A stretch of 36,237 bases of DNA from a virus. Every line of letters starts with the position of its first letter. Within the stretch, counting starts at the first letter, position 1. The DNA lies in IMG/VR virus record IMGVR_UViG_3300047470_000200, positions 1 through 36,237 of that record; one strand, written 5' to 3'. The notes below the pieces were generated by a model. It saw nothing but the letters and a program-made list of their open reading frames with translations. It made no database searches and was not told where the DNA came from. The translations under genes and the position numbers were made by a program. Shown here piece after piece: positions 1 through 31,822 of the stretch.

Positions 1-741
1 CGCCCGGACCTGACTTTCGATGGTCTTCAGGTGCTCGTCGAGTTTGGCACGCTGCCCGTCGGTCATGTCGACGTCGATGACCTCCGGGCGTAGCTGCCCG
101 ACAATCCCGCCCGCTACCTCCGCGAGGCGGAGGTGATCCGCGGTCGCCTTCACCCTCGACCCGGGTGACCGCTGCTCGACGACCGTCTCCCGCACTTCGC
201 CCTTGGGGGTGCGCTTCTTCGTGGCCGTCTTCTTCGCCGACGCACTGACCTCCTGGACGGGTCCGGCGTCGACGGCCGCCGCTACCTTCGTTGCGTTGAT
301 GATGACTTGGTTGGTCGCCCGAGTGTCCTGCTGTCGTTCGAGAGCCGACTCAGGGATGAGTCCGAGCCGCTTCAGTTCCCGCGGTGTCAGGTGCCGGCGC
401 AGAGCGTTGTTGACGTGGTAGCGGACGGCCGTTTTGATGCGGTCTTCGTCGACGCCTGCACGTCGATACATCTCGTTCACGGCCTTGCGGTACTCGCCGT
501 CACGGCCTAGCCAGTCGTCGTGCTGACGTCGCAATGCCAGGACCACAGTTGCGATGTTCTTCAGGAGGATCGTCGGGTGATGCTCAATCCTCCCCCACTC
601 CCGGGCGTACGCCGCACCGCGGACGACTAGCATCTCCTCCGACTCGTCCTTGATGTCGTCGAGCTCCAGCTGACGCGGGTCACTGACGTTCACGCGCACA
701 GCTTCGCCCTTTGATTGCCGGGCAACTTCGCTGGAGCTCAT
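1..741 (-). CDS. Unknown phage protein, Lys-rich C-terminal half (3' end cut by window)
   Basis: The minus frame is open from an ATG at 741 to the left edge, giving 247 residues with no stop, so the C-terminus lies outside the window. I do not recognise a family. The N-terminal part is mixed-charge. The middle is rich in Arg and Leu (around residues 85-130, including RRHLTPRELKRLGL) and could be helical. Residues around 165-180 are a basic AKKTATKKRTPKG stretch typical of a flexible nucleic-acid-binding linker, followed by another charged segment. The gene has its own upstream region with an operator-like site between a -35 and a -10 (see 767-839), so it looks like the first gene of a regulated leftward transcript. 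A DNA-binding or regulatory role is only a guess. The reading frame itself is well supported. Confidence 0.7.
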   Translation of the reverse strand, partial: MSSSEVARQSKGEAVRVNVSDPRQLELDDIKDESEEMLVVRGAAYAREWGRIEHHPTILLKNIATVVLALRRQHDDWLGRDGEYRKAVNEMYRRAGVDEDRIKTAVRYHVNNALRRHLTPRELKRLGLIPESALERQQDTRATNQVIINATKVAAAVDAGPVQEVSASAKKTATKKRTPKGEVRETVVEQRSPGSRVKATADHLRLAEVAGGIVGQLRPEVIDVDMTDGQRAKLDEHLKTIESQVRA

Positions 742-2637: not shown

Positions 2638-4980
2638 CTAGCCGACTGCGGCCCAAAACGTGAGGTTCGTGAGGGCGTTGCTTGCAGGCGTGATCGTGGC
2701 CGGCAACGCTGCCTGTCCCGTACCGTTCGTCGCGAAGCGGGCCGTGGCACCCGAAGTGTTCGCGCCGTGCAGGCCCCCGCTCAGCGTCCCTCCGCGGTAG
2801 ATCTGCGGCATGGTCGTTGCGGTCGCCAGGAACGCAACCCAGTACAGGCCCGGGGACACGTCGACGCTGATCGTCTCCGTGAAGGGGCCAGTGGCAGTGA
2901 CTCGCGCATCGACGCCGACGGAGGCAAGCCTCGCCCCCGCTGCGCTGTAAAGCCCGACGAAGTTCTGACCTGCCGTCGGCGTGACGCCCGCCGTGTTGAT
3001 GCCCCACATGATCTTCGTCAAGGTCGTGTACTTCGGGACGTAGACCGCGGACAGGTACAGCGTTCCCGACACTCCGGCACTTCCGTTGCCGATGGTGGCG
3101 GGGTCCTGCGTCCAGGCGACGAGGCCATGGTCAGACGGCTTCGGTACGCCGAGAGCGCGACCAGCCACCGAAAGACTGTTCGTGATCCCGTCGAGCGTCG
3201 CTCCACCGTCGACGGCGCTCGTCGGGGACGCAGGATCGCCGACGAGTTCGCGGATGTTGAGGCCCCGCTGAAGACGGGTGTTGCCGCCTCCGTCCCTCCA
3301 TCCGGCCGTCATGCCGTTAAGGACGCCGCTATGTACCGCGACATAGGTACTGCCGGTGACCGACACGCCGTACTGAGGAGACCGCGTCCCGGAGCTGTCG
3401 TCGTCGATACCCGTCAGGACGCTGACGTCACTCGCCTCGACGATGCCGGGGCACGTATCCACCATGAGGCCGGCGTAGTTGCCTCCGCCTGTCCCTCCGT
3501 TGCGCCCGTCTCGGTTCAACCGCGCGTTCGTGATCACCACAGTTGCGCCGGCGGATCCTCCCGTGACGAGGATTCCGCCCTGTGCGTTGCGGTCCGTCGA
3601 GCAGCCGATGAGCGACAGCTGTGCGTTCCCGGGGACGAGGTGGAAGCCCTTCAGGTTCCACTCGCTTCGGCACCCGATAAGCGTGGTGTTCCCGCACCCG
3701 CTCAGGTAGAAGCCGTAACCCGCGGAGCCGATGGCCTCGACGTCGATGAGCGTCGAGTCCGTCGTGTTGTTGAGGCTGAACGCGTTTCCTCCACAGTCAG
3801 ATGAGATGACGCGGCGGAGGCGACTGGAGTACGGGGCCTGCGGGAGTCCGGCGGGAGCGGAGAAGTTGTAGGTGAAGAACACCGCATGTCCGCCGAATTT
3901 CTTGATCGACAGGTTCTCGAAGACGAGACCGCGGATGGTGCCCTGCGCCTGAACGCCGTCGACCGCGTTACCGGCCGGAAGTGCGGTGCCGTCTAGCGTC
4001 AGGTCGTAGAGCCGCTGCTCACACGACTTCGCCGCGTATCCACCGAGCGGGGCGTCCAGGATCAGGATCACTGCGGCCCCGGTGAACGTCGACAGTGCCT
4101 TGATGCGGGCACTGACCTGCGTCCACCCGCTCAGGTTGTCGAAGTGATCGCCGTGGGACCCCCTCAGCGTCACCCCGGGCGGGATGACGAGCGGAGCCGA
4201 CGTGCGGTAGGTGCCGGCGGGAAGGTAGACGACGCCACCTGTCCCCGCTGCGTTGAGGGCGTTCTGAATCGCGGCTGTGTCGTCCGACGTTCCGTTGCCC
4301 GTTGCGCTGTACGGCGCCTTCCTCACATTGATCCAGTCGGTCACGCCGACTGCTGTGAGCCCCGCTGCTGTGCCCGCCGGGTCCGCCCCGACATCCGCGG
4401 CCGTCAGGGAAACGACGCCAGTCTCTCCGTTGACTGAAGCGACACCGTTCAGTGCGACGCCGGACGTCGGCCAGGAGCCGGCGGACTTCGGGCCGTAGAG
4501 GGAGACGGCGCCGGGAGTGGTGTCTATGTAGTAGTCGCCATTGACGCCCAGGACGTCGGAGGGGGCGCCGGATCCGTTGTAGATCTGCGTCCCGTCCTTG
4601 CCCTTCGGGCCGGTGATGACGACATAGTCACCCTCGCTCGGGTCAGTCGGAGCGATGTCCGCCAGGTCCACGGTGGGCGTCGCCGACGGAAGCGCGATGG
4701 GGAACGTCCGCCCATGCACCTGATGGAGACGCTCGACGACCGTGTAAGTCCAGTCCGACGGATCTCCGCCTGCTGCGTCCGTCGCGATCAGAGAGACGGA
4801 GAAGGCGCCCGTCGAGTCCAGCGCCACCGTGGCAGCGCCGAAGCTGATGACGTCGGCGTCCGGGAACGTCAGGTGCGCCGGGGGCTCGAAAGTGAGCGTG
4901 CCCGTCAGCGGCGTACCATCGGGCCGGATGTAGCGGCCCGTGAGGTTCACGGACGCGATGCTGATGGGTACCTCTGGCAT
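2638..4980 (-). CDS. Tail fibre / receptor-binding protein with pectate-lyase fold
   Basis: This is a 780-residue protein. Residues 1-110 (SIASVNLTGRYIRPDGTPLTGTLTF...) form a beta-rich attachment domain of the kind seen in actinophage minor tail proteins. ITGPKGKDG near residue 122 and SLYGPKSAGSW near 160 are short collagen-like or fibre-linker segments. From about residue 225 the NGTSDDTAAIQNALNAA...GGVVYLPAGTYRT signature of pectate lyase superfamily 3 begins, followed by about 350 residues of short repeating beta turns (parallel beta-helix). The last 150 residues form a beta-rich cap ending in NALTNLTFWAAVG. Such proteins bind or degrade cell-surface polysaccharide. It is followed downstream by the dNMP kinase promoter and preceded by the holin-like gene with no gap. 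Whether it has enzymatic activity cannot be read from the sequence. Confidence 0.85.
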   Translation of the reverse strand: MPEVPISIASVNLTGRYIRPDGTPLTGTLTFEPPAHLTFPDADVISFGAATVALDSTGAFSVSLIATDAAGGDPSDWTYTVVERLHQVHGRTFPIALPSATPTVDLADIAPTDPSEGDYVVITGPKGKDGTQIYNGSGAPSDVLGVNGDYYIDTTPGAVSLYGPKSAGSWPTSGVALNGVASVNGETGVVSLTAADVGADPAGTAAGLTAVGVTDWINVRKAPYSATGNGTSDDTAAIQNALNAAGTGGVVYLPAGTYRTSAPLVIPPGVTLRGSHGDHFDNLSGWTQVSARIKALSTFTGAAVILILDAPLGGYAAKSCEQRLYDLTLDGTALPAGNAVDGVQAQGTIRGLVFENLSIKKFGGHAVFFTYNFSAPAGLPQAPYSSRLRRVISSDCGGNAFSLNNTTDSTLIDVEAIGSAGYGFYLSGCGNTTLIGCRSEWNLKGFHLVPGNAQLSLIGCSTDRNAQGGILVTGGSAGATVVITNARLNRDGRNGGTGGGNYAGLMVDTCPGIVEASDVSVLTGIDDDSSGTRSPQYGVSVTGSTYVAVHSGVLNGMTAGWRDGGGNTRLQRGLNIRELVGDPASPTSAVDGGATLDGITNSLSVAGRALGVPKPSDHGLVAWTQDPATIGNGSAGVSGTLYLSAVYVPKYTTLTKIMWGINTAGVTPTAGQNFVGLYSAAGARLASVGVDARVTATGPFTETISVDVSPGLYWVAFLATATTMPQIYRGGTLSGGLHGANTSGATARFATNGTGQAALPATITPASNALTNLTFWAAVG

Positions 4981-8294: not shown

Positions 8295-10481
8295 TCACGC
8301 TCCTGTGTAGACGTCGAGCCAGGTACTTGCGCCGGCCAGGGCGTCGGCCCATGTGTCGTCCGAGTCGGCAACGGTCTGCCACGTGCGGTCAGCGCTGCCT
8401 GTAACGCCGCCGATTGGACGGCCTACTTGGGTCAGCGGCAGAACCCACATGCGGTCGTGGAACTCCGCATAGTCGACGACCGGTGCGGCGCTGACGTCGC
8501 CGACGGACACGTACATGTCCTCCTCGCCCCAGCCTGGAGGCCACTGCAGGAGCAGCGGTCCGCCAGAGTCGAGCACCCACCACAGCGAGTCGCGGTCGGC
8601 GTCCGTCTCCGTGACGACGGTGAGGTCCCCCGCTTTCCCTCCGCGGACGTCAGAGATGACGATCGGGAGTGAGGCGCCCCTGACTTGGTTCATCCCCTGG
8701 CGTGCAGGGCGAGACCACGTCGGCATGGGCGTTGCGACGGTGAGCTTGACGTTCCTCTGCGGGAGTCCTGGATCCTTCAGCCACACGTCGGTGATTTCGG
8801 CGTCCAGGGTGACCGGGTCGGAGACGAAGCTGAGCGAGCCAAACCCGCTAGGGTTCTTAACCGTCACTCGCCACTGCACAGGCACGCCTAGCGGGGCCTC
8901 GTAGTCAGTGGCCACGGCCACATCTCCCGTGATCGGCTGCGACGACAGGTCGCCGCTCCAGCCGCGCACAGGTTGGGCTGCCTGGCCCGAGATGATTCGT
9001 TCGAGCGTCCACAGGTACGTCGGTCCGCCGCTCGTCAGGCCACGCACGGTGATGGCTGCTCCGCCACCTCCCGCGGCTACAGCCTTCGCTGTCAGCCCGC
9101 CTAGGCGCCACTCGACTCGGTCCAGATACCAGACTTCGCCGGTAGGAACGTCCGGGACGACGAAGCTCAGGCGGACAGCGACGGCTCCGTCGGGAGTCAG
9201 GTCACCCATGCTGCCCGCGAGCCATCCCGTCGTCCGCCCCGTCCAGGACTGCCAACGGGTTCGAACGGGAGTCCCCGACGAGTCAAGCCACTCGATGCGC
9301 GTCTGATAAGTGCGCGCCACCGTCTGAAAGCTGCACGGAAGGAACTGATAGCCGAGACCAGCCGTCACACCGATCGGGTTCGTGATCGTCGCCACGATGT
9401 CCCCGCCCGCCGCGACGAGCTTCATCGAGTAGGAGCCGGCTAGGACTTGCTCCGTCGTCTGGGACGCTGTGGCTCCTGAGACTGACCAGCCGGAGACGTC
9501 CTGCTCCATGTCGCTCGTGTTGTAGGGCAAGAGATTGCCCGTCGTCATGAGCGCACTTGACGGTGCCAGGACTGCTCTGTCGTAGACCCACTGCTGACCC
9601 GATGCCGTGGACTGTGGGGCAAGGCCCATCTTTGCCGTCACGGCGCCCGCCGGAGCGGTGCCGACGACAACACATCTCGTCCACTGTCCCGATGTCGGGG
9701 TCCAGTCGGCCGAAGAGACGCTGATCTGTGCCCCAGTGCCGTCGAGCCACTGTATTTGGATCTTCTGCGTCAGCCCCGCGGCTCCTGGAGTCACGTAGGC
9801 GTAGGCCACGTACTCAGTACCCGTCGAGACGCTCACCGACTGCGCAGTGAGCGCGAGACACGAGCCGGAGCCCGTCGACGTCAGACGGAGCGACTGGTAC
9901 CACGTGAACGCACTCGTTGAGATCCCCAGCGAGCACAGGGAGGACGCTGTCCAGCCGCTCGCGTCGGCCTCCGCCGACTCCGTGTTGAAGGAGAGGAGGT
10001 TTCCCGTCGAGGGCGTCGTCAGCCCCAGGAACATGCGATCCGCGAACCACGCTTGCGCGGCGGCCGTTGCCGTCGGCCTGATGACTACGTCGGCCGTCGC
10101 AGCGTTCGAGGGAGCGGTCCCTACAACGCCCACCTGATGCCAGGTCGCGGACGGAGCCGACGTCAGCGGGCCCTGCGCCGTACTGATCAGCGTCCCGCCG
10201 GACGTGTACCACCGGATCTCTATGCGGGACTGAGCACCCACAGCCGGCGGGAAGACCGACGCGCACGCCCAGTGCTCCGCGTTCGGAGTGACAGCCACTC
10301 GCGACGCTAGGCCGACCTGGACATCACCCGCGGCGACGGACGTGAACCTGAGACACTTCGATCCGAGCGTCCCTCCGGTCGACTGCGTGGGATTCGTGGA
10401 GTTGATGAGCGCCTGCCACGCGGAGGCGTCAGTCTCGACGCTCTCCGCGTTGGCGGACAGGAGATTGCCCGTGATGGCCAC
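8295..10481 (-). CDS. Minor tail protein with three CBM-like repeats
   Basis: This is a 728-residue protein from a GTG. Three tandem units of about 155 residues begin TGNLLSANAESVETDASAW, TGNLLSFNTESAEADASGW and TGNLLPYNTSDMEQDVSGW. Each has a beta-rich body and a W-DR-type ending (AWFADRMFL, QWVYDRAVL, VWYLDRVEW), the pattern of carbohydrate-binding jelly-roll (CBM_4_9-like) domains. Residues 460-728 contain a fibronectin-like segment (QWRVTVKNPSGFG) and a tail-attachment part ending in TWADALAGASTWLDVYTGA. It likely binds cell-surface glycans at the tail tip. The GTG overlaps the stop of the small upstream ORF as TAGTG, indicating coupling. The CBM assignment rests on visible repeats, not on a search. 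Confidence 0.8.
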   Translation of the reverse strand: MAITGNLLSANAESVETDASAWQALINSTNPTQSTGGTLGSKCLRFTSVAAGDVQVGLASRVAVTPNAEHWACASVFPPAVGAQSRIEIRWYTSGGTLISTAQGPLTSAPSATWHQVGVVGTAPSNAATADVVIRPTATAAAQAWFADRMFLGLTTPSTGNLLSFNTESAEADASGWTASSLCSLGISTSAFTWYQSLRLTSTGSGSCLALTAQSVSVSTGTEYVAYAYVTPGAAGLTQKIQIQWLDGTGAQISVSSADWTPTSGQWTRCVVVGTAPAGAVTAKMGLAPQSTASGQQWVYDRAVLAPSSALMTTGNLLPYNTSDMEQDVSGWSVSGATASQTTEQVLAGSYSMKLVAAGGDIVATITNPIGVTAGLGYQFLPCSFQTVARTYQTRIEWLDSSGTPVRTRWQSWTGRTTGWLAGSMGDLTPDGAVAVRLSFVVPDVPTGEVWYLDRVEWRLGGLTAKAVAAGGGGAAITVRGLTSGGPTYLWTLERIISGQAAQPVRGWSGDLSSQPITGDVAVATDYEAPLGVPVQWRVTVKNPSGFGSLSFVSDPVTLDAEITDVWLKDPGLPQRNVKLTVATPMPTWSRPARQGMNQVRGASLPIVISDVRGGKAGDLTVVTETDADRDSLWWVLDSGGPLLLQWPPGWGEEDMYVSVGDVSAAPVVDYAEFHDRMWVLPLTQVGRPIGGVTGSADRTWQTVADSDDTWADALAGASTWLDVYTGA

Positions 10482-21503: not shown

Positions 21504-23004
21504 CCGCGCTCCGTCCGATCACGGTCCGCTGGTCACGAGCCGATCGGGCGTCGGCGATGCTCGTCGGTTGCGGAGCCGCGGGGTCAACAGCCGTCTGCGC
21601 GTTCATCGCGTCGGCAGCACGGTCGATCTCCATGCGGGAAATCTCCGCGGGCGTGTAGCCCATGTCCTCCATGCGCTGACGCCACGGGACGCCGGCTGTC
21701 GCCTTCTTCACAGCAGCGTCGGCCAGTTCGGCGATGCTCCGGGACTCCGGATCACGCCAGACCGTCTCAGCGGTGTACGCGTTGGCCTTTGTCTCGTCGC
21801 CCAGGACCCGGAACGCAATCCGCATCGTGGCTTCCCACGATTCGCCGAAGTTGCGCTGCCGGTCTCGGACCTTCGAGACGAGGCCGGTCTCCGCAGCCTT
21901 CAGGGCGTCGCCGCTGACGTTGACCACGGCACCGATCAGGTAGTGCGGAGGAGTCCGGCTGATCGCCGCGAGATCCTGCACCGCAGCCTCGACGGCCCGG
22001 ACGTACGGAACGAGGTCAGTTGCGGAGAACTCTCCGAACTTGACGTCGGGATCCTCCGTTGTCCAGAGGCGCCGAATGTCGAGCTGGAAGGGCTGGATCT
22101 TCTTCCCGGTGACGGGGTCCTCGTCGACCTCCAGGCCCGCGGCCCAACGCTGACGGAAGGCGCCGTACTTCATGGCGGCAATCGTCATGATGAGCGAGAG
22201 CGTGATGCGGTTCTGGACCGTGAGAACGTCCTCGTGCTCAGCGAATCCCCCAAGCCTGCGGTTTCGCCGGTTGATGAAGGGGACGAGGGGGACGATCCCC
22301 AGATCGTTGGGCCGGTGACTCTCCGACTGGTTCGGCAGCGCGAAGGCGTCCCAGCTCGTGAGGCGAGCCGCACGGCCGGAGAAGACGGGCGCGTTGGTCT
22401 TCGTGACGAACTCGTGGATCGTCTCCGGAGTCCACAGCGTCGCCCGGGTGTCGCCCGTCCAGTCGTCCCGCCACAGCTTCAGGCCCGCAGCGAGCTTTCG
22501 CCGGCTCCCCTGCATGTGCTCGACGGCGACCTGCCGCGGAGTCTCGTGCGTGATGACCGGTCGACCGTCGTCGCCACGCTCGACGAGGGTGAACGCCCTT
22601 CGCTGTGACAGGGCGCCGTAGTGGACGAGGTCCGCGTCCGCGTCGAGGCTGTTCTCCTGCCAGACGCGGTTCGCTTCCTTGTCCGACGTCTTCGCACCGT
22701 CGCTGTCGTCGTCCGGCTCACCGAAGCGGAAGCCGTCGACGTGCATGCGCTCAACGGGAGAGTCGATGACGAGGCTCGTCCAGTTGGTACGGGCGTCCTT
22801 CATCCACTCTGAGACCTCCGCGGGGTCCAGGCCAGGCACACGAGGGAGCGGCGCACGGTTCTCCGCGTACCGCCTCAGCGTGTCGAGGCCAGGCTCCACT
22901 TCGCCGTCAGCGTCCTTGGAGTCGTCACGCTCGTCGAGCAGCTTCTTACCGAGCCGCTGAAGCCACCACCCGGGAGACTCCACCTTCGAAGCATCGATAG
23001 GCAC
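21484..23004 (-). CDS. Portal protein
   Basis: The protein has 506 residues. It begins MPIDASKVESPGWWLQRLGKKLLDERDDSKDADGEVEPGLDTLRRYAENRAPLPRVPG and continues with WTSLVIDSPVERMHVDGFRF and NSLDADADLVHYGALSQRRAFTLVE, a pattern found in SPP1 gp6-like portal proteins. The central part contains FINRRNRRLGGFAEHEDVLTVQNRITLSLIMTIAAMKYGAFRQRW, the stem helices. The C-terminal part (PPHYLIGAVVNVSGDALKAAETGLVSKVRDRQRNFGESWEATMRI) is typical for the crown side. The portal forms the ring through which DNA is packaged. It lies between TerL and the MuF-like gene. Confidence 0.9.
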   Translation of the reverse strand: MPIDASKVESPGWWLQRLGKKLLDERDDSKDADGEVEPGLDTLRRYAENRAPLPRVPGLDPAEVSEWMKDARTNWTSLVIDSPVERMHVDGFRFGEPDDDSDGAKTSDKEANRVWQENSLDADADLVHYGALSQRRAFTLVERGDDGRPVITHETPRQVAVEHMQGSRRKLAAGLKLWRDDWTGDTRATLWTPETIHEFVTKTNAPVFSGRAARLTSWDAFALPNQSESHRPNDLGIVPLVPFINRRNRRLGGFAEHEDVLTVQNRITLSLIMTIAAMKYGAFRQRWAAGLEVDEDPVTGKKIQPFQLDIRRLWTTEDPDVKFGEFSATDLVPYVRAVEAAVQDLAAISRTPPHYLIGAVVNVSGDALKAAETGLVSKVRDRQRNFGESWEATMRIAFRVLGDETKANAYTAETVWRDPESRSIAELADAAVKKATAGVPWRQRMEDMGYTPAEISRMEIDRAADAMNAQTAVDPAAPQPTSIADARSARDQRTVIGRSADDANAA

Positions 23005-25392: not shown

Positions 25393-25998
25393 CTACGCCG
25401 TCAGCTTGGAAACCACCGCGGAGAGGTCCGCGAGGATAGACGGGGAAGAGCCATGTCGGCGACCCGTCACGGTGATGTAGCGGCCGGTCCCGTAGATCTC
25501 TACGGCCGTACCGTCGGGGCGCCGGATCTTCCGTCCCTGGCGGACGTCAGCGCGACCCCAGATGTGCAGTCCATCGCCGGACGGGGACACCTCTACGTAG
25601 GTGGCGCCCGCGTCGCGAAGGATGGATGCGGCCCACGGAGCCAGACGGCCCGTGAGCGGATTCAAGCAGTGGTCCAGGTCGATACAGACCACGTCGTCGA
25701 CGTCGGAGAGGACGAAGCCCAGACCGACGCCCGCCACGGACTCCGCGGCGTTCTTGTAGGTGCTCCAGGTGCGAGCGTCAGTGCTTGACGCGGCTCTGCC
25801 AGTCGTCGTCAGCGGACGCTTATCGCCGGCTCGACGGACCCATCTGTCACGGGTCGTCAGCTCCAGCGGGAGCACGCGCTTCTTCTCTGCGCGGTGCAGT
25901 GCCACGCGGCAACGCACGGAGCACGTCCGAGCGTCAGCGCGAGCGGCTAGGGGCATGTCGCCTCCGCAGTGCGCGCACAGTCGCTCGGCTCTCATCAT
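25393..25998 (-). CDS. Prim-Pol (archaeo-eukaryotic primase) domain protein
   Basis: The protein has 201 residues. An N-terminal Cys4 segment (C8, C11, C26, C30) looks like a zinc finger. From about residue 43 the bifunctional primase/polymerase (PF09250-type) core follows. The catalytic pair VCIDLDHCL is at 104-112, SPSGDGLHIW at 138-147 carries the third acidic/His motif, and EIYGTGRYITVTG completes the core. No helicase or further domain follows, so it is a stand-alone AEP module. It probably synthesises primers or short DNA. Its ATGATG start lies seven bases from the -10 box TACAAT, so the mRNA is likely leaderless. It is the first gene of the packaging/head operon. Confidence 0.8.
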   Translation of the reverse strand: MMRAERLCAHCGGDMPLAARADARTCSVRCRVALHRAEKKRVLPLELTTRDRWVRRAGDKRPLTTTGRAASSTDARTWSTYKNAAESVAGVGLGFVLSDVDDVVCIDLDHCLNPLTGRLAPWAASILRDAGATYVEVSPSGDGLHIWGRADVRQGRKIRRPDGTAVEIYGTGRYITVTGRRHGSSPSILADLSAVVSKLTA

Positions 25999-29434: not shown

Positions 29435-29463
29435 GTTATGGGGCGCAGGACGTGAGATGTGAC
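29435..29463 (-). promoter_or_regulatory. Phage promoter copy 2, upstream of the zinc-finger gene
   Basis: On the minus strand GTCACA (29458-29463) and CATAAC (29435-29440) are spaced by 17 bp, with the same flanks (GTCACATCTC ... GCGCCCCATAACC) as the copy at 2604-2632. The downstream gene starts at 29392. Confidence 0.6.
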
Positions 29464-29607
29464 GTTGAGGACGGCCGGACCGCTGCAACCACGCTTCAAC
29501 CCGGAGGAGAGTGCGGGGAACGTCGGGAGCGGTGCCGGCCGTCGAGGGAGGGGAGCGGGACGCCGCGCCATTCGCCGGCGCCGCCTCGTCCTCCTCTCCC
29601 TACATTG

Positions 29608-29636
29608 GTAATGGGGCGCGGGGGACGCGGTAATGA
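29608..29636 (-). promoter_or_regulatory. Phage promoter copy 3 (partial), next to the candidate origin
   Basis: The -10 side GCGCCCCATTACC is identical to copy 1, and both are followed by GTAGGGAGAG-type sequence. The -35 position (29631-29636 minus TCATTA) does not match GTCACA, so this copy may be weaker or activator-dependent. It would produce RNA running away from the origin region towards copy 2. Confidence 0.45.
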
Positions 29637-29923
29637 TCTTGAGCCGTCCTCAGGCAGGCTGCGCCAAAATGCCAAACTAACCCCTATTTTCACTTCCTCT
29701 CTAACGCGTGTTAAGAGAGTTAGAAATAAGGGGTTAGTTTGGCCAGTTGGACCGCAGAACGACCCTGACGGTTACGGTTGGCGACGAACGGGGCGTCACT
29801 CGTCACCCTATGGAGTTATCCACAGGCTCCTGTGGATAACGTGGACGGTGGGCGGCGTCGACGAGGAGGGCGAGGAGGGCCGGCGGGGACGCCTGAACCC
29901 TCCACGGAGCCTCATGAGTGCGC
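29637..29923. other. Non-coding region holding the candidate replication origin
   Basis: No convincing gene. An AT-rich imperfect inverted repeat occupies 29671-29743. The outer arms are GCCAAACTAACCCCTATTT and its complement, differing by one inserted A. The inner arms are CTCTCTAAC and GTTAAGAGAG, again with one extra A. At 29815-29840 two exact DnaA boxes, TTATCCACA and TGTGGATAA, face each other in a perfect palindrome with a two-base centre. Such an AT-rich patch plus DnaA boxes in a GC-rich genome is what an origin looks like. The region ends at the integrase stop. Confidence 0.55.
29816..29839. promoter_or_regulatory. Inverted pair of DnaA boxes
   Basis: TTATCCACA (29816-29824) and TGTGGATAA (29831-29839) are exact matches to the E. 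coli DnaA box consensus in both directions, and close to the Streptomyces form TTGTCCACA. They form a palindrome with a 6-bp spacer. This suggests host DnaA helps replication start here. Confidence 0.65.
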
Positions 29924-31699
29924 CTACGACGTTACAGACTCGTTATCTTCTTCGACCGCGGAAGGCTTCGCCCAGTCGATCTCAACGCGGCCGTCAGCGC
30001 GCTCCCACGCCGTTCCGCGCTTCGTTGTGGCGGGGTTGACGACGACAGCGTCCACGAACAGCGACAGGAACGAGCGTTTAGCTTCGACGTCCCACCGATC
30101 CCAGAGCCCTCCGGGTTCAAACGGGTTGCCGTCGTCGGCGTTTGCGAGCCACTCGTCAATGGGCAGACGCGTTGCCGTCGTCGCAACGGCCCTCAACTCG
30201 TCGATGCGTGCCGCGCAACGTGCCTCGTGCTGCTGGTATCGCTTGACGGTGTCCTTGAACGCCTGACGGCCCGTGGGACCCTCGTAGAGGCCCTCGTCAC
30301 GGTCCTCGTAGAGGGTCTTCATGCTCTGCTGGACGTGGAGGAGCTGCGCCTCTTGCTCCGCCAACTCCGCAGCTGCCTCCGGGTCTGTCCCCTGCACCGC
30401 GAACCGTTCCGCGGCAGCTGCCAGTAGAACGACGTCGTCATCGTCTTCCGGGTCAAGTGACGCCACCTTGCCCCACAGCCGGCTAGCAACAACGCCGTCA
30501 GCCGCATCCATGGCAACGCGAAGAACGTGCTTCGGGTTGTCGCCAACGCTCCGCCGGAGGTTGCAAACGTACGTTGCGTCGACGTTGGACACGGTCAACC
30601 CTGACTCACAGATCCCGCAACGCAGGACGCCCCACGACCCGAGGAAGGTCATCGTTCCCGCACGGTCCATGGTCCGCTCGCGCTTCCGCCCGTCGAGGAG
30701 CGCTTGCAGGTCGTACCACCGCTTCGGGTCGATGAAGCCTTCATGCGGCCTCACGGGCTGCCCCTCCTCGTCGCGGAGGATCTCGCGTCGCTTCGTCTTG
30801 GGGTCGACGGGCCCGATAGCGAATCCGGCAAGCCGCGGGTCCCGGAGAATGCGCCGGATCACGGTGGACGACCACTCGTAGCCGGCGGCGTCTTTGTCCC
30901 CGCTCTTGCGCCGCTTCTGCGCCGCTTCCTTCCTCGCCTTTGACGCCTCGTCATCGAGACTGGCGAGCGGTGTGCGTGCGCCCTTCTCCGTCAAGCTCGT
31001 CGCAATGGCGTTCTCTTTGACGCCGGATTCGGCCTGAGTGACGGCGTGCATGACGATGTCAGCCGGCGTCGACTTGGGCCCGATCTCAGCGTCGCTCGTC
31101 TCCCCTGGCTTCAGGATCCGAATCGTCAGTCCGTCGACGTGCACGGCCTCCACGTCGAATCCGTAGGGCACGGGGCCGGAGGAGTGGGACCCCTTCGCCT
31201 TCAGTGCGGCGAATGCGTCGCGGATGAACTTGGATTTGTTCTTCGATTCCTGATGAGCGAGCCCCGCGATAAGCGCGAAGAATGCGACGCCAAAGGGGTT
31301 GTCATCCGACGTGTTGATGAACGGCTCTTGCGTCGAGACGAGCGCTACACCGTAGTTCGCCAACTCCTGCTGAATCCTCATTGCCTCCGCGGCCCCCTGG
31401 CGCGTGAGACGGGAGAGCATGTAGATCACTACGACGTCGAACTTGCGCGCCCGAGCGTCTTCCATGAGCCGCTCAAAATCGGGCCGGTAGACGTTAGGGT
31501 CGTACCCTGACAACCCGACGTCCTCGTAGTGCCCGACGTGCGTCCAGTGATCTTGAGAGTTGATGTAGGCAATCCCCTTGTCCTTCTGCATCTTTGGGGA
31601 TGCCTGACTGTCCGTCTCGCTCTTATGACTCTGCCGGCCGTACGTGACTGCCCTGACCATGTCGGCGTGGTCCCTGTCCCCCAGGGCGATGAGCTCCAT
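29924..31699 (-). CDS. int: Large serine integrase (phiC31/phiBT1 type)
   Basis: The protein has 591 residues from the ATG at 31699; a start 33 codons upstream or one at 31660 remains possible because no clear RBS is seen. The catalytic serine is S24 in TYGRQS. The resolvase core continues through VVIYMLSRLTRQGA and the recombinase domain (RILRDPRLAGFAIG). A zinc ribbon (LRCGICESG...TYVCN) and a coiled-coil segment (LAEQEAQLLHVQQSMKTLYEDRDEGLYEG) precede a C-terminus (LPIDEWL...WDRWDVEAKRSFLSLFVDAVVVNPATT) like that of the phiC31 integrase. It inserts phage DNA at attB; excision would need a directionality factor, which I could not identify here. Confidence 0.95.
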   Translation of the reverse strand: MELIALGDRDHADMVRAVTYGRQSHKSETDSQASPKMQKDKGIAYINSQDHWTHVGHYEDVGLSGYDPNVYRPDFERLMEDARARKFDVVVIYMLSRLTRQGAAEAMRIQQELANYGVALVSTQEPFINTSDDNPFGVAFFALIAGLAHQESKNKSKFIRDAFAALKAKGSHSSGPVPYGFDVEAVHVDGLTIRILKPGETSDAEIGPKSTPADIVMHAVTQAESGVKENAIATSLTEKGARTPLASLDDEASKARKEAAQKRRKSGDKDAAGYEWSSTVIRRILRDPRLAGFAIGPVDPKTKRREILRDEEGQPVRPHEGFIDPKRWYDLQALLDGRKRERTMDRAGTMTFLGSWGVLRCGICESGLTVSNVDATYVCNLRRSVGDNPKHVLRVAMDAADGVVASRLWGKVASLDPEDDDDVVLLAAAAERFAVQGTDPEAAAELAEQEAQLLHVQQSMKTLYEDRDEGLYEGPTGRQAFKDTVKRYQQHEARCAARIDELRAVATTATRLPIDEWLANADDGNPFEPGGLWDRWDVEAKRSFLSLFVDAVVVNPATTKRGTAWERADGRVEIDWAKPSAVEEDNESVTS

Positions 31700-31780
31700 G
31701 GGTAGATACGGTACCGGTTCTGAAGATCCGGTCTGTTTGCTACCTAAGTGTACAACACGCTCTGACCTGCGGAAACGCAG
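31700..31780. other. Candidate attP region upstream of the integrase
   Basis: In phiC31-type phages attP lies immediately upstream of int. Here 31700-31765 contains ACCGG...CCGGT and a short GTTTG...CAAC symmetry around CTACCTAAGTGTA, the AT-richer spot of the neighbourhood. No host half-site is available to confirm it. Confidence 0.35.
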
Positions 31781-31822
31781 AAGCCCCGCCCACCCCACGG
31801 GGACGAGAGGCAGGCGGGGCTT
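31781..31822. terminator. Terminator between int/attP and right-arm genes
   Basis: AAGCCCCGCC (31781-31790) and GGCGGGGCTT (31813-31822) form a 10-bp stem. Preceding CGGAAACGCA matches the terminator at 1534. It isolates int from transcripts of the divergent module on its right. Confidence 0.7.

Follow-up and report, generated by a model that had tools for sequence, protein, structure and literature searches.

A paired inverted-repeat element as a candidate two-site replication origin in Samy-type and phiC31-type actinobacteriophages

Results

Anatomy and setting of the dyad

The window analyzed here, a 36,237-bp IMG/VR virus contig, carries a large inverted repeat outside recognizable genes, flanked by the stop codon of a serine integrase gene (int) on one side and by a promoter-like sequence and tRNA genes on the other (Table 1). 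The arms GCCAAACTAACCCC (29671-29684) and GGGGTTAGTTTGGC (29730-29743) form an exact inverted repeat with a total span of 73 bp, and an inner repeat, CTCTCTAAC/GTTAAGAGAG, is present with one indel. Among inverted repeats with arms of at least 14 bp and a spacing of at most 100 bp, this dyad is the only one in the 36,237-bp window (shuffle mean, 0.05). Its AT content over 73 bp is 57.5%, compared to a window average of 34.4%, and the most AT-rich 30-bp stretch of the window lies inside it. The half-site consensus of the extended dyad reads GCCAAAnT-GCCAAACT-AACCCC, with an 8-bp spacing. A first-pass annotation of this DNA had described a nested inverted repeat of about 75 bp, noncoding and among the most AT-rich parts of the window, followed about 75 bp on by facing DnaA boxes in a perfect palindrome; the sequence bears out each of these points, the palindrome lying 71 bp from the nearer arm. 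The same annotation had placed the element between a promoter and int, which is right as to position, but int is transcribed toward the element, which is therefore downstream of the gene. The window integrase has a 68% identical homologue in Streptomyces sp. DH12, where the dyad lies approximately 206 bp downstream.

Table 1. Features of the window discussed in the text
Feature	Coordinates	Strand	Remarks
Immunity-repressor homologue	4..741	-	At contig edge; 53% to SAMYPH_32; in every relative, copy B lies immediately past the gene
Small stand-alone Prim-Pol domain protein	25393..25998	-	Near inferred cos end; homologue of Samy SAMYPH_1 (82%); absent from phiC31
Second phage-promoter-like motif, CGTCACATC...CCCCATAAC	29435..29464	-	Ahead of tRNA array; recurs in relatives
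Structured leader RNA, conserved	29469..29603	-	Promoter to tRNA array; 36 pairs, 15 with compensatory double changes
Phage-promoter-like sequence, weak	29608..29640	-	After dyad, reads toward tRNA/late genes; in relatives GCGTCACA...CATAAC (by comparison)
Extended dyad	29664..29750	.	Profile match (nhmmer); flanks contribute an additional outer repeat unit
Core dyad (copy A)	29671..29743	.	14-bp perfect arms; inner part AT-rich, pyrimidine/purine-biased; centre TAACACGCGTTA (minus strand)
Facing DnaA boxes, TTATCCACA-N6-TGTGGATAA	29815..29840	.	Perfect palindrome; 71 bp from 14-bp arm, 74 bp from 69-bp core
Large serine integrase gene	29924..31798	-	PF00239 and PF07508; end 84 bp from DnaA palindrome

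The leader RNA ahead of the tRNA array is approximately 130 nucleotides long, and its stem-loops show compensatory changes across 15 relatives; it had no significant match in Rfam. Its function is probably separate from that of the dyad, and it may be a cis-acting antitermination or processing RNA. phiC31-type phages have a similar CTCTCC...GGGTTGAGC hairpin ahead of their first tRNA. A phage-promoter-like motif, CGTCACATC-N(15-18)-CCATAAC, recurs at several positions in the window and its relatives and is perhaps read by the phage sigma factor.

Two loci in Samy-type genomes

The only annotated phage matching this region was Streptomyces phage Samy (75% identity over approximately 420 bp). 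Besides Samy, over 20 viral contigs or prophages have the same 69-bp dyad, many of them recovered by pattern scans of viral contigs and one of them a prophage of Streptomyces sp. DH12, always at two loci. Locus A, represented by the window copy, lies between int and the tRNA array, HNH, cos and late genes, while locus B, approximately half a genome away, lies between the immunity repressor gene and the exonuclease gene that heads the early genes. Both copies were found in nine of nine genomes covering both loci (Samy, G001, G003 to G006, G016, G017, and G019), and the remaining contigs were without a copy only where that locus lies off the contig. Absence of the dyad in close relatives, which had been named in advance as a finding that would speak against the first-pass annotation, did not occur, as every relative covering the locus has it. 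Because the dyad is conserved among relatives, comparison of their sequences excludes a chance origin.

We further examined a blind set of seven contigs, chosen solely by possession of a relative of the Samy primase and not by the dyad. Six of them, with primases 65 to 90% identical to that of Samy, gave a dyad profile match in 11 of 11 covered gaps. The seventh, which is phiC31-like with a primase only 45% identical, was without the Samy-type dyad and carried a matched pair of its own (score of 69 versus a shuffle maximum of 19). No match to the element was obtained in the plasmid collection searched, and an integrase-based search for related loci in viral contigs found none.

The window contig breaks at the repressor stop codon, approximately 60 to 80 bp short of the expected start of copy B. 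From the layout of its relatives, the window's own copy B is thus expected just outside the contig; a repeat-caused assembly break at window positions 1 to 4 is plausible. In one relative, G005 (L050-L052), a single base distinguishes the 69-bp dyad at 22386 from that at 50668, and the two have approximately 20 bp of flank in common, suggesting gene conversion between A and B in that genome.

Bidirectional transcription termination, or an RNA hairpin, could account for a large inverted repeat located directly past a stop codon at both loci. However, conservation of the arms appears to lie in their sequence rather than in covariation: double changes affect 4 of 21 pairs, which is near the value for shuffles, and 10 never vary, whereas 15 of 36 pairs in the neighboring leader RNA are compensatory. 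Moreover, an intrinsic terminator consists of a G+C-rich hairpin and a T run, while the stem of the dyad is AT-rich and a T tract is absent. Rfam matches of the dyad remained under the gathering scores, and candidate terminators are present separately, as a terminator-like hairpin after int in Samy and G001 and as an annotated putative terminator after phiC31 int. We hold a terminator or RNA hairpin to be a very unlikely explanation of the dyad.

A position beside int also raises the question of whether the dyad is the attP of the serine integrase, since attP sites are imperfect dyads adjoining int (PMC5311408). The Samy attP, however, maps 5' of int, and a fragment bearing it integrates in six Streptomyces strains (PMC12924846). 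The dyad lies 3' of int, it is found whole next to int in the chromosome contig of DH12 and hence not split at the prophage ends, it is duplicated at B, and it is common to phages with very different integrases. We regard an attP as effectively excluded because the mapped attP of Samy sits on the other side of int. Integrase was likewise considered as a protein that binds the dyad and was judged unlikely, given that the integrases differ widely and the dyad does not. The dyad centre, TAACGCG(CG)TTA, is reminiscent of telomere-resolution sites of linear plasmid prophages; such a site was rejected for Samy, which has cos ends and is chromosomally integrated.

DnaA boxes beside copy A

The palindrome GTTATCCACAGG-CT-CCTGTGGATAAC (29815-29840) is perfect, with 12-bp arms, and holds TTATCCACA at 29816 and TGTGGATAA at 29831; no further strict TTATCCACA, TTGTCCACA, or reverse complement of either was found elsewhere in the window. 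Copy A has a DnaA pair at a distance of 66 to 75 bp, usually 73 to 75 bp, in 15 of 17 genomes. G005 and G022 have no boxes at A, and those of Samy are degenerate. By comparison, 0 of 15 B loci scanned have a DnaA pair, and a check for strict boxes found none near the six B loci of the later contigs. In the 18 contigs of the first set, strict TTATCCACA is confined to A loci; in G022, a later contig, A is without a box and one isolated box lies at another position. The dyad-proximal box is TGTGGATAA in all genomes but Samy (TGTGGGTAA), while the distal box is variable, and most of its variants still conform to the Streptomyces consensus in the literature, [TC][TC][GA]TCCAC[AC] (PMC3583192). Changes in one half of the palindrome have no counterpart in the other half, a pattern indicating two sites for protein binding rather than a hairpin. 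No DnaA box was found in the A gaps of the seven phiC31-type phages examined. Thus, of the features of a DnaA-dependent origin, host-consensus boxes are present as one facing pair at A, but the cluster of several boxes beside an unwinding element is not seen: there is a single pair, and none at B or in phiC31-type phages. The exact DnaA-box palindrome TTATCCACAGGNNCCTGTGGATAA also occurs in 13 other viral contigs (L018-L030), from which the dyad is absent.

Matched pairs across the phiC31 family

The gene order of Samy and phiC31 is syntenic at both loci. In phiC31, BT1, TG1, Shawty, RemusLoopin, and AbbeyMikolon, matched pairs of elements occupy the same two gaps, with a sequence specific to each lineage. 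phiSASD1 also has a matched pair, with no repressor gene annotated in its B gap, and pairs occupy the same two gaps in Arthrobacter phage Tallboi and in G025. In all nine of these phages, the best match of B was A; for most of them, the search covered the right-hand half to two thirds of the genome. In Shady, the A/B similarity was at background and judged not significant (20, versus a shuffle maximum of 19 and a value of 21 elsewhere in the segment). Typically, a series of short repeats spaced by approximately 8 bp borders an AT-rich core on one side and recurs inverted on the other; at its centre the core has a palindrome or the remnant of one. We assigned this spacing by eye, and the half-site autocorrelation peaks only weakly at lag 8 (0.362, versus 0.351 at lag 12). 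The elements are not annotated in the Samy and phiC31 records; no replication origin is annotated in the phage records examined, nor did the open-access literature searched yield a paper describing one.

A candidate initiator

All phages compared here that have the paired element encode a P4-alpha-type primase-helicase (SAMYPH_63 in Samy and gp9a in phiC31). The proteins common to these phages also include the exonuclease, the recombination directionality factor, gp4, gp5, and DNA polymerase. The primase-helicase gene lies beyond the truncated window, and its domains were read in relatives: gp9a-type primases combine TOPRIM with D5_N/DUF5906 (Pfam) and have a D5/SF3 helicase. They align with P4 alpha at 98% in hhalign over 312 columns, extending into the origin-binding region, although the C-terminal domain alone gave no convincing alignment with that of P4 (hhalign, 2 to 5%). 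The C-terminal region was modeled as an RFX-like winged helix (Z score of 9.3; 2.1 Å over 70 residues; pLDDT of approximately 92 there). This predicted fold is shared with the RFX DNA-binding domain, which is no proof of function; the origin-binding domain of P4 (1KA8) was not among the structural matches, a result that neither supports nor excludes a likeness. Between phages with different element types, the C-terminal region is more variable than the helicase.

The position of the dyads fits a transcriptional role equally well, and the main rival to a replication function is that they are transcription-control sites, either operators or upstream activating sites, for the early (B) and tRNA/late (A) lytic promoters, bound by a phage repressor or activator. 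Promoter-like motifs follow both copies at a distance of 60 to 121 bp; the two copies have the same orientation relative to transcription and stand where the two gene blocks begin. Nonetheless, the dyad-promoter spacing at A varies over approximately that range while the spacing to the DnaA boxes is nearly fixed, and the profile found no additional copies before other early genes or elsewhere in the genomes. The repressor is also a doubtful binder: within the Samy group, primase identity is 64 to 90%, whereas the repressor drops to 29% in G005 with the dyad arms there unchanged, which argues against it, and phiSASD1 has the pair with no repressor gene annotated in the B gap. Overall, we consider a transcriptional role rather unlikely.

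Discussion

We favor, with a probability of roughly 0.6, a two-site phage origin of replication of which the dyad forms copy A; the phage primase-helicase would recognize it, with host DnaA as an addition at A. In this model, the primase-helicase, with its TOPRIM and SF3 domains and predicted C-terminal winged helix, would bind the short repeats approximately 8 bp apart, which form inverted arrays flanking the AT-rich core; it would assemble at the dyad and then melt the core. Site B, located approximately half a genome from A where the early genes begin, may cooperate with A as crr does with ori in P4; alternatively, A and B could be primary and secondary origins, like oriL and oriR of SPP1. 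In the Samy-type group only, DnaA bound to the box pair, approximately seven helical turns from dyad A, might assist or gate initiation. We infer binding, melting, and origin activity from the anatomy of the element, its two conserved loci, the matching within genomes, the placement of the DnaA boxes, and the homology and modeled fold of the initiator.

The first-pass annotation had proposed a bidirectional or plasmid-like origin using host DnaA together with the phage Prim-Pol. The dyad is real and an origin is still its best reading, but it is one of two copies per genome, the other falling beyond the contig end. DnaA would be an accessory and not the general initiator, because its boxes occur at copy A only and in the Samy group only, while the paired dyads of phiC31-type phages have none. 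The small Prim-Pol, which lies next to cos in the Samy group and is absent from phiC31, is probably not the initiator; the likely one is the P4-alpha-type TOPRIM primase/SF3 helicase of the early region. The GC-skew check that had been proposed gave a mixed answer: the detrended skew does turn, but at B rather than at A. In all nine Samy-type genomes, the cumulative minimum falls at B or no more than 3 kb from it; the maximum lies near A in only about six, and phiC31 has no such pattern. GC skew is suggestive but confounded by gene content and the early/late boundary.

Two further readings were weighed. Sites of ribbon-helix-helix proteins, too, can have short repeats spaced 7 to 8 bp apart; together with two directly repeated copies, nearly identical in G005, this might indicate DNA partition (centromere-like), packaging, or recombination sites. 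On the other hand, no partition gene was among those recognized, the Samy cos is annotated elsewhere, and there are exactly two copies at conserved loci, so we hold such a role to be improbable. A broader and decidedly speculative proposal would make sites A and B a switch serving replication as well as transcription throughout the phiC31 superfamily. The primase-helicase would bridge both sites and start replication and, by occupying or leaving them, would control the adjoining early and late promoters, while DnaA at A would tie the start of replication to the state of the host in the Samy group.

phiC31 and its relatives are the source of standard Streptomyces genetic tools. With a conserved matched pair at two fixed loci across Streptomyces and Arthrobacter phages and a candidate initiator identified by name, the question of the origin can be put to a direct test.

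Among known systems, the oriC of Streptomyces has DnaA boxes of the same consensus (PMC3583192, PMC4285127), but 17 to 25 of them over approximately 1 kb compared to the single facing pair here. Phage SPP1 offers two origins of similar layout in one siphovirus genome, oriL and oriR, each with repeats plus AT-rich DNA and one of them intergenic (PMC6316719); unlike the phages studied here, it uses gp38, gp39, and gp40 (a DnaB-type helicase) and direct repeats, without a primase-helicase fusion. The closest parallel is ori/crr of P4 (NC_001609), which likewise has two separated cis sites with short common repeats, and an alpha-type primase-helicase homologous to gp9a; its approximately 8-bp repeats in inverted arrangement around AT-rich DNA have an apparent counterpart here. 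In the P4 record, crr (4291-4590) and rep_origin (9086-9809) each contain 8-bp type 1 repeats in inverted arrays, approximately 5 kb apart in 11.6 kb, and when our pair-search procedure was seeded with P4 crr, the annotated P4 ori was the top match. Of the P4-type features, two separated cis regions with the same short repeats are present as A and B in all genomes covering both, and an alpha-type primase-helicase with a predicted C-terminal DNA-binding domain is encoded by relatives of the window phage. Unlike in P4, each candidate site here is a near-symmetric dyad of 70 to 120 bp, the sequence type changes in step at both loci between lineages, DnaA boxes occur at one site in one lineage, and the hosts are actinobacteria. 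If the proposed reading is true, the ori/crr plan of P4 would extend to a large family of tailed actinobacteriophages, one lineage of which would have added host DnaA boxes to a phage-encoded origin.
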